From contig PCXZ01000031.1 of NCBI GenBank assembly GCA_002762985.1, positions 1-50,115 of the forward strand: a DNA stretch of 50,115 nucleotides, in the 5' to 3' direction. This DNA is from Candidatus Woesearchaeota archaeon CG10_big_fil_rev_8_21_14_0_10_44_13 (GTDB lineage Archaea; Nanobdellota; Nanobdellia; Woesearchaeales; UBA12501). A program made the position numbers and the translations under genes. Under the pieces are notes generated by a model. That model was not told the origin of the DNA and searched no databases. It worked only from the letters and a program-made list of their open reading frames with translations. Below, in pieces: positions 20,050-46,039 of the stretch; the first letter of the stretch is position 1; each line of letters begins with the position of its first letter.

Positions 20050-20200
20050 TTTTTATCAAAAATCGCAGAATACTGTAAACGCAAAGCGTTTCCAGGCCTG
20101 CAAACCCTTTTTGCAGTACCTCTGCATTTATACCGGGGTCTTTTTTCGTTTCATGGGATTTTTGGAAATACTTCGGCCTTTAGGCCGAAGATATTTATTG
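20050..20200. repeat. Hairpin-rich element after the radical SAM gene
   Basis: The gene's stop runs into a GATTTTT/AAAAATC hairpin with an ATC loop (about 20049-20066), followed by AAACGC/GCGTTT, CTGCAAA/TTTGCAG and CTTCGGCC/GGCCGAAG hairpins up to 20190. A TACCTC segment near 20125 recalls the TAATACC motif of the 43 kb block. The first hairpin may also end transcription. Confidence 0.5.
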
Positions 20201-42372: not shown

Positions 42373-42527
42373 TGAGATGGGACATAACACTGACCTCATA
42401 TCTTGCCGACGGAAAGAGGGTGTACAAGGTGACAAGAAGGCTGCCGGGCATGTCTGTGTCTGAGACAAGGATCTTCAAGTCGAAGAAAAGCGCAAGAAAA
42501 CAGTTCAGGGAGTGGCTCCTATGTTAG
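42369..42527 (+). CDS. 52-residue basic protein of unknown function
   Basis: Starts at ATG 42369, overlapping the OB-fold gene by four bases (ATGA), and ends with TAG at 42525-42527. It is basic and has a compact beta-strand/helix pattern: MRWDITLTSYLADGKRVYKV, then RLPGMSVSETRIFKSKKSARKQFREW. The even mix of charged and hydrophobic residues and the tight overlap favour a real gene. No family is recognised with confidence. Its last bases overlap the end of the LMW-PTP gene on the other strand. Confidence 0.65.
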   Translation: MMRWDITLTSYLADGKRVYKVTRRLPGMSVSETRIFKSKKSARKQFREWLLC

Positions 42528-42829
42528 ACAACGCCTGCAATCCTTGATTTAAGGACCTTCACAAGCTCTGGCTGGTTATAATAGAATATGTCAGGTATAT
42601 CGAGGGAGACAATGCGCTTCTTCATGTATTCCCCAGGAAACCTTTTTCCTATCTCTGCCCTATGCGCATCTTCCATGACCACGATAAGATCCGCCCATTC
42701 GATATCCTTCTTTGTGACAGGATTCTCATTGTAAAGGCCTGCTGACCTGGTTTCAAATTTGCTTTTGAACAGCTCTTCAGCTGTCCTGCTCCTGTTCTCA
42801 TTCTGGTTGCATATGAAAAGGACTTTCAT
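42524..42829 (-). CDS. Low-molecular-weight protein tyrosine phosphatase-like protein
   Basis: 101 residues. The active-site loop C-N-Q-N-E-N-R-S (Cys7, Arg13) fits C-x5-R-S of the LMW-PTP fold, which is also the fold of arsenate reductase ArsC. A distal D-I-P-D (77-80) stands where the family has D-P-[YFW] as general acid. It is shorter than the usual 140-150 residues, so the C-terminal helix region is reduced. It could remove phosphate from tyrosine or a nucleotide. No tyrosine kinase is seen nearby. The stop overlaps the convergent small gene. Confidence 0.72.
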   Translation of the reverse strand: MKVLFICNQNENRSRTAEELFKSKFETRSAGLYNENPVTKKDIEWADLIVVMEDAHRAEIGKRFPGEYMKKRIVSLDIPDIFYYNQPELVKVLKSRIAGVV

Positions 42830-42904
42830 ACGGATGATAAGTTGGCTAAATATTATAAATTTTGCTTTTAGGATCTTGTTTGATTTTTATTATCTGGGCT
42901 TTTT

Positions 42905-43330
42905 TATTGAAAATGGCGTAAGCCATTTTCCGGCGGTTTAAAGAAAATCCCGACTAAAGTCGAGATTTTCAGACTTGCGAACTTGTTCGCAAGTAATACC
43001 TCACACTTCAGTGCGATTGCGCCATGATCAAAAATGCAAAGCATTTTTGGCACGCCAGAAATCTTTGATTTCTGAGCGTTTTCAAGACTAAAAACTCGCT
43101 ATCTATGCGAGGAGCGTAATACCCCCACATTTATGTTGGGGTAGTCACCGAGCCCAGCGAGCGTGACTATGAAAATCGCAATTTTCCGTAGTCAAAAATA
43201 GAATATTTTTGAGTATGAAAATCCGCAGATTTTCAGTAGCTCCGAGCGCGAGTTTTTATTATTTTATCAAGAACCGGTCCACCCCTCAACCTCAAGGTGC
43301 TTGGTTGTGCAAGAAAAAACTTATAAGCAA
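42905..43330. repeat. Dense block of at least eleven short-loop hairpins (copy 4 of the interspersed element)
   Basis: No gene is seen. From 42909 to 43234 nearly every base is in a small hairpin: arm/loop pairs include GAAAATGGC/GTAA (42909-42930), CGACT/AA inside GAAAATC arms (42943-42970), ACTTGCGAAC/TT (42973-42994), CAAAAATGC/AAA (43029-43049), CAGAAATC/TTT (43056-43074), CTCGC (43095-43111), CCCCCACAT/TT (43122-43141), TAGTCAC (43142-43169), GAAAAT/CGCA (43171-43186), CAAAAATA/GAA (43193-43211), GAAAATC/CGCA (43217-43234). The right part then matches copy 1 (CGAGTTTTTATTATTT, ACCTCAAGGTGC, TTGGTTGTGCAA). Confidence 0.7.
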
Positions 43331-43344
43331 TATTAATGGGACGC

Positions 43345-44106
43345 TCAATTCTTCACAGCGAACAAGAACCTGTACGGCCCTGCCTTCGATTCGATGTTCT
43401 TGAACCTTGATCCCTTGTCCTCGAGGATGAACAATGTCGAATGCCCGTAATCCACTACGCCTATGTCCATCAGCGGATCATAGAAGCAGTCATGGTAAAC
43501 GTCAAAATCATTCTCTTTCTTCTTCTCCAGCAGCTTAGTTATCATCCTATGGACCTTGGCGAGGCGCACAGGGACTTTTGCGCCGAAGAATTCCAGCCGG
43601 TCTATCGTATTGTTCTGTATGACATTGACAGGGAAATGCACCTCGAATGTGACATCCTCTTCTGCTATTATTGTCTTTGTCGTGACGTTCCCGAACTCCA
43701 GCTCATAATCCCTCTGCCTGTTCTCAACGTATTTATAGATGCACAGTATCATGTTCTTGTCCATGAAATCCGACAATTCCTCTGTCATCCGGTCTATTGA
43801 AGCCAGCGAAGAGCCGTTATCATATGCATAAGCGACCTTGAGGTTCGAGTCATTGAGATAAGGGCGTGAAAGCTGTATGTGGCCCCCCTGCATGCCCATC
43901 TTCAGCAGGGCAAAAGATCCCGTGTTCTCGACGCACAGCGTTATCTGGTTCTTGAGCGCCGATTTAGGCAGGAAGCCTGCCTGTTTCTCCAGATTGCCTT
44001 TTTTTAACTCATTGATGAGATATGTGGCTGCGAAGATCATCATGAGTATGACTACCCCTGTCATGATGAATGCTGAAAGCTGTGATCTCTTATTATTTAT
44101 TCTCAT
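43345..44106 (-). CDS. Membrane-anchored exported protein (pilin-like N-terminus)
   Basis: 253 residues from ATG 44106. The N-terminus (NNKRSQLSAFIMTGVVILMMIFAATYLI) has a basic stretch followed by a hydrophobic helix, like a type IV pilin-like signal with the processing site near the KRSQ. The rest is an extracytoplasmic mixed domain with single cysteines at about 58, 122 and 206. It is not recognised. It overlaps the 648-residue exported protein gene by 14 bases and is the last gene of a three-gene operon. Its partner genes are all exported, suggesting a surface complex. Confidence 0.6.
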   Translation of the reverse strand: MRINNKRSQLSAFIMTGVVILMMIFAATYLINELKKGNLEKQAGFLPKSALKNQITLCVENTGSFALLKMGMQGGHIQLSRPYLNDSNLKVAYAYDNGSSLASIDRMTEELSDFMDKNMILCIYKYVENRQRDYELEFGNVTTKTIIAEEDVTFEVHFPVNVIQNNTIDRLEFFGAKVPVRLAKVHRMITKLLEKKKENDFDVYHDCFYDPLMDIGVVDYGHSTLFILEDKGSRFKNIESKAGPYRFLFAVKN

Positions 44107-46039
44107 CTTTTTCCGGCCCATATTTTTCCAGCATATTGTCATAGCTCACTGCGGCCCATGCCTGCAGCTTGTCCCTGAAAAGCTTCTCTGCTTCTGTGTT
44201 CGGCGTGAAGACGACGATCGCCTGCGTGCTGTTGCATATCCTTCCCAATGTCTTGTCGATCACGCCCATCAGGGGGGTGTTATCCTCTAAGTCAGATGAA
44301 TATAGCAGGACATAAGGCGGAGATTTCGGCTGCCTGTTGAAATCCTCGAACCTGAACACATGGCCTGATATCTTTTTTTCGATGATCCTATGGAAGCCCG
44401 TGTTCATCTCCGCTGCGACATCTGTCTTGTTGTCTATGTTGCTGTTCAGGATAGTTAGATTGACGTTCTTGCCGCCTATGAGATTCAAGAGCGCCCTGTT
44501 GCTGTAATCGAAGCTCATGTACACTGGCATGAACTCGAGCTCTGCCGAATTGTATGATTCCATGCTCTCTATCTGCGGCATGAATTCCCTGAACCTATCA
44601 TACGTTATCACCGCATTCAGCTCTATGTTCTCAGGCAGTTTGACATACCCCCATGAGTTTGTATCAGTGCTGTTCAGGAATTCCGCATAAGGCAGGAATC
44701 CGTCCTTGTAGAAACCTATCGTATAATCCTCATATCCTGTGTTCAGGAGAGAATAGCTTTTTTCCTTGTCATCCTTTGCGATATAGCTGTACCTGCAGCC
44801 AGGGCATAATGCTGTCAGGACAGGGCTTAGTATCACCTGGATGAATCCTGCATCAAAATCTATCTTCGCAGTGCTGGCCCGGCATTCTGATATTATGTAT
44901 TCTGTGAATTGCTTTTCTGTGAACTCAAGCGTGCCCCTGCTCATGCTGTATTCAGGGGTCTCTGCTGCCTCAATCTTCATCTTCGCATTGTTCTCAGCTG
45001 CCCTAAAGGTTATCTTTGACATGTTGAGGAAGACGCCTTTGCTCATCGTGAAATCGACCTGGTTAGGCATGATGCTGACCTCGAATGAGCTGTTCTCAGC
45101 GTAATCCACCTTGATGTCAGGGCTTGAGCCTTTGATAGGGTTCTCCAATGTTGCTGTGTTGTTGTCCTTCGCCGATTTCACGTCCGCATATACTAATCTG
45201 TTGTTTATTACAGAGAAAGTGGAGTCTTTCACGTCCGTGAATGTCGTGCTGCCTATCGTCACTGAATCGGCAGTCGTCACTGTGAATGTACCCTTCTTGC
45301 CCTCGTAATTGTTGACATTGGTCGATGTCGTAGTCTGGTATGTGACGGTGTCTGCTGCCGCCACCCTGAAATCGTCCTGCGAGAAGACTATGTTCTTGCA
45401 GTTCGTGCATCCGACAGCAGTGCCCGGGACATTGAATGACTCTGCAGATGACGCTGTGATCGTTCCTTGCTTGACTTCGTAGTTCTGGACGTTTGTTGAG
45501 ACTGTGTTCTGATAATCTATTTGACGGGCCCTTAACGCCTTGAAAAGATTTTGGTTTGTGAATGTCATCTGATAAGCGCCAGCTATCTTGAATTGGGGTG
45601 TGCTGGTCTTTATCTCTAGCGTTCCTCCGTCGCTTTCAGGGGTGTATGAGAGCGGCGTGTCCGGGTCCGTAAGGACGTTGTTCCCGTTCTTCTTGTCGTT
45701 GAAATTGTCGCCTGAAGGTGTCCTTGTTATCGAGAATTGGTCCATCATGCTGGCAAAATTCTCGAACAGATCGAAGTTGAAGACTTCTTTCACGACTTGG
45801 GTTGTTGTAGCTGGGTTTTTATTGAAGACATCTTTGAAGAAATTGACTATGCCATCCCTTATATCTGTTGTGATTATTGTTTCGACTTCATCATGGGTTG
45901 CATCAGCTTCGTAGCCTTCTGCGTTAGGGTCGAAACCTCCACCCGTATTTGTTGTTGGTACTCCATCAGTAGCACTTACATGAAAAATATAAATGGATAA
46001 GATTATAATTAATAAGAAAACCTTATAATTTAATTTCAT
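44093..46039 (-). CDS. Large exported protein with internal repeats
   Basis: 648 residues from ATG 46039, preceded by GAGG at five bases; an upstream ATG at 46072 would overlap the neighbouring gene. A signal peptide (about 1-23, ending VSA) is followed by Thr/Asn/Asp-rich beta-strand sequence. Two related segments, YQNTVSTNVQNYEVKQGT and YQTTTSTNVNNYEGKKGT, each about 50 residues apart, suggest repeated domains. Cysteine pairs occur as C-T-N-C and C-P-G-C. No family is recognised. It is probably a surface or secreted protein, and its position between a Tat-type thioredoxin-like protein and a pilin-like protein supports that. Confidence 0.6.
   Translation of the reverse strand: MKLNYKVFLLIIILSIYIFHVSATDGVPTTNTGGGFDPNAEGYEADATHDEVETIITTDIRDGIVNFFKDVFNKNPATTTQVVKEVFNFDLFENFASMMDQFSITRTPSGDNFNDKKNGNNVLTDPDTPLSYTPESDGGTLEIKTSTPQFKIAGAYQMTFTNQNLFKALRARQIDYQNTVSTNVQNYEVKQGTITASSAESFNVPGTAVGCTNCKNIVFSQDDFRVAAADTVTYQTTTSTNVNNYEGKKGTFTVTTADSVTIGSTTFTDVKDSTFSVINNRLVYADVKSAKDNNTATLENPIKGSSPDIKVDYAENSSFEVSIMPNQVDFTMSKGVFLNMSKITFRAAENNAKMKIEAAETPEYSMSRGTLEFTEKQFTEYIISECRASTAKIDFDAGFIQVILSPVLTALCPGCRYSYIAKDDKEKSYSLLNTGYEDYTIGFYKDGFLPYAEFLNSTDTNSWGYVKLPENIELNAVITYDRFREFMPQIESMESYNSAELEFMPVYMSFDYSNRALLNLIGGKNVNLTILNSNIDNKTDVAAEMNTGFHRIIEKKISGHVFRFEDFNRQPKSPPYVLLYSSDLEDNTPLMGVIDKTLGRICNSTQAIVVFTPNTEAEKLFRDKLQAWAAVSYDNMLEKYGPEKDENK

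Follow-up and report, generated by a model that had tools for sequence, protein, structure and literature searches.

The window (i.e. the whole 50,115-nt stretch of archaeal DNA that was analysed) contains a 359-bp non-coding block (copy E1) between an LMW-phosphatase-like gene at 42524-42829 (- strand; PF01451) and an ORF at 43345-44142 (- strand) for which no Pfam match was obtained. The features of this block are listed in Table 1. Twelve perfect inverted repeats, a few of them overlapping, were present (arm length, 5-10 bp; loop length, 2-8 bases), and near-perfect inverted repeats occurred in addition (e.g. 42943-42970, 43120-43143 and 43144-43167). Coverage by perfect hairpins whose arms measured 6 bp or more was 42.8% in positions 42911-43235, the 325-base stretch with the highest hairpin density in the window, as compared to a window-wide mean of 4.0%. 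None of 1000 dinucleotide shuffles reached this coverage (maximum of 28.6%). Predicted folds were approximately 10 standard deviations better than those of shuffles on either strand, with energies of -133.7 kcal/mol for the + strand (shuffles, -85.3; z -10.1) and -139.0 kcal/mol for the - strand (z -11.3). A first-pass annotation had described a hairpin-packed non-coding block at 42909-43234. The presence of at least 12 hairpins, with a coverage and fold beyond those of shuffles, bears out this description, and comparison of same-genome copies with unlike flanks widens the block slightly on both sides.

Searches of the block for tRNAs, Rfam families and long ORFs gave no match. The same annotation had ruled out a CRISPR array and a tRNA cluster, and we agree: neither of these identities, nor that of an Rfam RNA, was supported by the searches. 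A solitary hairpin, CTTCGGCCTTTAGGCCGAAG, was observed elsewhere in the window (20171-20190; context AATA..GATA) and resembles the CTTTAG-loop hairpin of the element.

Table 1. Features of element copies in the window (a slash within a motif marks an insertion point)
Feature	Coordinates	Strand	Basis and remarks
Whole element (copy E1)	42904..43262	+	359 bp; ends TTATTGAAAAT ... GTTTTTATTAT; non-coding; same-genome copies with unlike flanks; 93% identical full-length copy at G000:C16:56490-56850
Left-end hairpin GAAAATGGC-GTAA-GCCATTTTC	42909..42930		Inverted repeat and copy comparison
Hairpin pair (42943-42970, 42973-42994)	42943..42994		Inside short stem-loop GGTTTAA/TACC, which is uninterrupted in the 139-bp copies (E1 vs E7/E8)
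54-nt double-hairpin module TGATC-hairpin-GGCACGCC-hairpin-GAGCG	43025..43078		Missing in copy E3 (CCA/TTTTC); the part common to DPANN archaea
Central AAGACTAAAAACTCGC with local hairpin CTCGC..GCGAG	43084..43111		8 copies in genome
Hairpin TACCCCCACAT-TT-ATGTTGGGGTA	43120..43143		Both arms differ from copy E2; extra inserted hairpin pair in E3 and E5
Hairpin chain (43144-43167, 43171-43186, 43192-43212, 43216-43235)	43144..43240		Complementary linkers CTAT, GTAG, GTAT and GTAG
Right end GCGAGTTTTTATTAT	43248..43262	+	12 exact copies in genome
Right end of second copy, truncated by contig start	1..59	+	Right end CTCCAAGCGGCGAGTTTTTATTAT

A dispersed, modular element in the host genome

Approximately 14 copies of the element are present in the host genome (1.52 Mb, 36 contigs). 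Complete copies are 359, 358, 350 (containing an N gap), 306, 258, 164, 139 and 139 bp in length, and the total is made up of the twelve places with the exact right end of Table 1 and two further copies that gaps or contig ends interrupt. When the block was compared with the host genome by BLAST, many partial copies were returned in addition to the full-length copy of Table 1. All complete host copies begin with TTATTGAAAAT and finish with GTTTTTATTAT whilst their flanks appear unrelated, demonstrating a dispersed family with identical, fixed ends. With regard to the terminal inverted repeats and target duplication of a MITE derived from a DDE transposon, the element ends are only weakly inverted (TTATTGAAAA and ATAATAAAAA), and the copies have TTAT on either side, where a fixed 4-bp duplication is indistinguishable from element sequence. 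Five contigs (C8, C9, C16, C21 and C27) start or stop within a copy, i.e. the copies break the assembly, as repeats do. The ends of C16 and C21 overlap within a copy and these contigs may be neighbours.

Comparison of the copies revealed a layered construction. Two large hairpins make up the 139-bp copies, and longer copies add hairpin pairs at fixed sites. One such pair lies within the short stem-loop GGTTTAA/TACC of the longer copies, another within the loop CC/TTTAGG of E3, E5 and E6, and one or two units are added after ATAG in GGAGATAG/CTCC; the 54-nt double hairpin is present in both E1 and E2. Hairpin number in chains of the type found at 43144-43240 varies among elements. The units follow a common plan of linker-hairpin-linker-hairpin-linker, with complementarity between the middle linker and both outer linkers. 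Three linker sets were read directly from the sequences, namely ATGC, GCAYGC and GCRT; AAC, GTT and AAC; or ATAG, CTAT and GTAG. These linkers may serve as recognition sites. The module is near-symmetric under reverse complement, and hits of its covariance model coincide on the two strands. Alternative pairings are available to the 5' arm of the left-end hairpin, with a distal CCA (43022-43024) and TTTTCA (43079-43084) that are split by the inserted module, and to the central AAGACTAAAAACTCGC region (43084-43111), which forms an inverted repeat with the right end (43248-43263). The first-pass suggestion of a mosaic of REP-like units was therefore right in kind, the element being dispersed and modular with units that are cleanly present or absent. 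Other nested hairpins, with AATCCCAGACGAGCTTGCGAGTCGGGATT-type stems, occur in the host genome at 1420-1590 of locus L014 (G000:C30).

Spread among archaea and insertion sites

Matches to the block at E <= 0.001 were found in 104 of 288 genomes of the order, mainly via the 54-nt module. Twenty copies of the module (alignment A2) were used to build a covariance model, by which the module was detected in 181 of the 371 phylum genomes searched. The exact double-hairpin pattern was found in 12 stretches of the GTDB collection (84,980 species), all of them archaeal records labelled as Aenigmatarchaeota, Nanoarchaeota, Woesearchaeota, DPANN group or 'archaeon' and none bacterial, whilst the right-end pattern was not found in GTDB r220 genomes. 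A virus or phage origin was rejected, as phage records did not match the block and the double-hairpin pattern was not found in IMG/VR. Further families of the order also contain same-ended relatives. One genome of another family (G208) has >14 near-identical elements, full or cut by contig ends, with the ends TTATTGAAAAT ... TTTTTGTTAT, and genome G098 contains approximately 60 pieces of a related element. A different element family was observed at loci L169-L173 of genome G181, bounded by outer inverted repeats of the type AACAACAATGGC..GCCATTGTTGTT and with a related double hairpin in the interior.

Filled and empty sites provided evidence for insertion. A whole element of approximately 250 bp in G098 is missing from the aligned orthologous site of the congener G136, where the flanks are joined with a short gap; this was the only whole-element empty site found. 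Clean presence/absence pairs of 50-55 nt were obtained for modules in E1 as compared to E3, in two G098 loci (L174 and L176), where the loop of CCCCGACC/TTTAGGTCG is the site of the module, and in a tRNA-Ser(TGA) duplicate of G137. This duplicate contains two module insertions, GGTA/TTGCG and TTGGG/TATCC, and an intact gene is located 216 bp further on. Junctions at both of these sites and at CCA/TTTTC and GACC/TTTAG were clean with no target duplication, demonstrating that insertion is precise. The intact copy directly downstream led us to reject RNA introns as an explanation of the two tRNA-Ser cases. Interrupted tRNAs of further genomes (i.e. Gly-CCC, L094; Leu-CAG, L090; Arg-TCG, L177) also became whole when a module was taken out of the sequence, together with some adjoining bases in two of these three cases. 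Broken or partial tRNA duplicates bearing modules adjoin intact or nearly intact tRNA genes at L225, L277 (G137:C5), L146 (G135), L088 (G187) and L178 (G376). The tRNA neighbourhoods look like module hot spots.

An A preceded the module in 84 of 116 cases and a T followed it in 71 of 116. In 19 of 110 insertions the two flanks showed complementarity of 6 bp or more, as compared to 5.3 expected from permutations, indicating that pre-existing hairpins are favoured insertion sites. The E1 module occupies a stem arm and not a loop. An intergenic bias was evident, as only 4 of 39 modules were located within ORFs of at least 120 aa as compared to 67% of random positions. One element of approximately 250 bp (G098:C27; L176, 414-1101) was observed near codon 3 of a gene, open and in frame, where it adds approximately 80 residues ahead of the part matching the G136 gene.

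Stem evolution, a candidate mobiliser and rival explanations

Stem pairing was examined in alignment A2, whose rows were partly picked for possessing hairpins; 10 of 20 pairs were changed on both sides, with a covariation score of 0.347 as compared to 0.133 in shuffles. Among 116 unique modules detected by the covariance model, 113 different arms were found, and the stem pairs comprised 1894 Watson-Crick pairs, 28 plain mismatches and 6 G-T pairs (0.3%) in hits whose selection by hairpins or a structure model favours paired stems. The corresponding numbers for 22 tRNAs of the same loci were 446 Watson-Crick pairs, 38 G-T pairs (7.9% of 484) and no mismatches. As the pair scoring treated G-T and mismatch alike, the difference in G-T content between modules and tRNAs is not a product of that count. 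Stems that are highly variable between copies and yet Watson-Crick perfect argue for upkeep as DNA and against a structured RNA, since G-U pairs would be permitted under selection for an RNA fold but not under templated DNA correction. Covariation, the absence of which the first-pass annotation would have taken as a refutation, is strong but DNA-like in character. Between E1 and E2, which are near-identical copies, one hairpin loop is flipped (GCGAACTTGTTCGC and GCGAACAAGTTCGC) and hairpins are swapped in both arms at once, and a similar loop flip distinguishes G181 copies (CAAAAATCAGAGATTTTTG and CAAAAATCTCTGATTTTTG). Such flips and two-arm replacements probably represent events on folded DNA.

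A single Y1 gene was detected in the host (G000:C30:45-389), scoring below the NCBIfam IS200 cut-off and with only 21.8 bits for the REP-associated family (cut-off of 80); TnpB was not found in this genome. The element was more frequent among Y1-positive than among Y1-negative genomes (24 of 40 vs 21 of 78; P = 6e-4; 118 genomes, uncorrected for phylogeny and genome size). Of 14 module-bearing genomes tested, ten were without Y1 (G098, G010, G137, G031, G181, G109, G041, G065, G376 and G433); two of these ten (G010 and G433) are single-contig genomes and one (G098) is rich in copies. All 19 Y1 loci inspected were flanked by their own IS-type hairpins and not by the element; the flanks of the host locus, which is cut by a contig end, and of 18 others do not match TTATTGAAAAT...GTTTTTATTAT. 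A role for Y1/RAYT as a necessary mobiliser is unsupported, given the ten genomes without Y1, and for the same reason membership of the REPIN/RAYT system is not claimed. A REPIN-like mode of working (i.e. non-autonomous and single-stranded) is plausible. The IS200/IS605-type elements at three Y1 loci of relatives (L113, L120 and L122) have a common hairpin, CCCCGCACTttAGTGCGGGGAGG, downstream of Y1; it recalls the CTTYAG-loop hairpins within the element and a distant origin is possible.

Our preferred reading, to which we assign a probability of roughly 0.7, is that the block is a copy of a non-autonomous, non-coding, nested palindromic mobile DNA element of DPANN archaea, built of hairpins within hairpins in a REPIN-like layout. 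Double-hairpin units of approximately 45-55 nt would insert precisely without target duplication, often into the loops of other hairpin-forming sequences, older element copies included. Movement may proceed via single-stranded DNA with the hairpins folded, by a putative enzyme acting in trans, and the stems may be maintained by strand-templated correction or hairpin flipping at replication. Any service to the host would be incidental. A more specific proposal, that the units form a REPIN/RAYT- or PATE-type system and are moved in trans as single-stranded DNA by an IS200/IS605-related Y1 (HUH) tyrosine transposase, is tentative: it fits the two near-inverse bulged hairpins and conserved short linkers of each unit, the intergenic location without target duplication, the host Y1 gene and the enrichment of element carriers among Y1-positive genomes, but is countered by the Y1-lacking genomes, by the separate hairpins of the Y1 loci and by the lack of TnpB in the host.

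Growth without a transposase, in which template switching by the replication machinery multiplies hairpins and the element spreads by ectopic copying, would explain the loop inversions, the two-arm block replacements between near-identical copies and the many module-bearing genomes without Y1; precise ends conserved across the order and bursts of near-identical copies resemble enzymatic transposition instead, and we regard this route as improbable. A similarly low probability is given to the proposal that units are inserted, flipped and re-templated by events at the replication fork on folded single-stranded DNA, with neither their own transposase nor that of a resident IS involved, forming a self-nesting, stem-randomising class of selfish DNA spread across DPANN phyla. 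The one large structured RNA suggested in the first-pass annotation, or a family of such RNAs with helices kept by selection, would account for the deep fold and the strong two-sided covariation of the module. This explanation is very unlikely, as both strands fold equally well, Rfam has no match, G-U pairs are almost absent, length varies between 139 and 359 bp, and modules are gained and lost and stand solitary at many loci. Least probable are ordinary transcription terminators or REP-like regulatory palindromes. The intergenic location and two terminator-like sites on the - strand would fit such an identity, but this count is little above that of shuffles (mean 0.6, sd 0.7), and the size, nesting and dispersal are unaccounted for.

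Comparison with known palindromic elements

The genomes of DPANN archaea are small and are regarded as streamlined. About half of the phylum genomes searched nevertheless carry modules, often in many copies. In these units the insertion and re-templating of DNA hairpins are recorded naturally, and filled and empty sites are available for comparison. No description of such an element was found in the literature searched, most subscription journals being outside its coverage. On the preferred reading, the block represents a nested form of palindromic miniature mobile DNA, a class that is already known.

REPINs/BIMEs with RAYT (TnpA-REP) of bacteria are miniature non-autonomous palindromic elements mobilised by Y1 transposases, with two inverse REP hairpins per unit and an intergenic location, and compensatory changes are reported for the REPIN spacer (PMC3116915, PMC6006769). 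Only subclass 1.1 (IS200) of the Y1 enzyme family was found in archaea (PMC6006769). Two inverse palindromes also form one symmetric unit in the archaeal module. One fixed GTAG foot is, however, used by REPIN/RAYT, whereas the module has ATGC, GCAYGC and GCRT linkers and GTAG/CTAT is confined to one sub-unit type; moreover, the stems of the element are freely diversified, its units nest within units and most module-bearing hosts tested are without a Y1 gene. Double-hairpin or repetitive hairpin-forming elements also invade intergenic DNA of fungal and sponge mitochondria with no known enzyme, and flanking duplication is absent for those of Allomyces (PMC2800124). The archaeal element shares these double hairpins, the intergenic location and insertion without flanking duplication, but resides in cellular archaea, is phylum-wide and exhibits hierarchical nesting. 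Sponge elements have conserved stems and variable loops, whereas the stems of the archaeal element vary with compensation.

IS200/IS605 elements and their palindrome-associated derivatives have single-stranded DNA hairpin ends, no target duplication and a TTAT-like flank. All three features recur in the archaeal element, which differs in being without a transposase, in having a host without TnpB and in possessing hairpins throughout and not just at its ends. Palindromic elements of Rickettsia are hairpin-forming insertions able to lie in genes. The in-frame G098 copy at a gene start is reminiscent of these elements, but the low number of modules within long ORFs sets the archaeal element apart.
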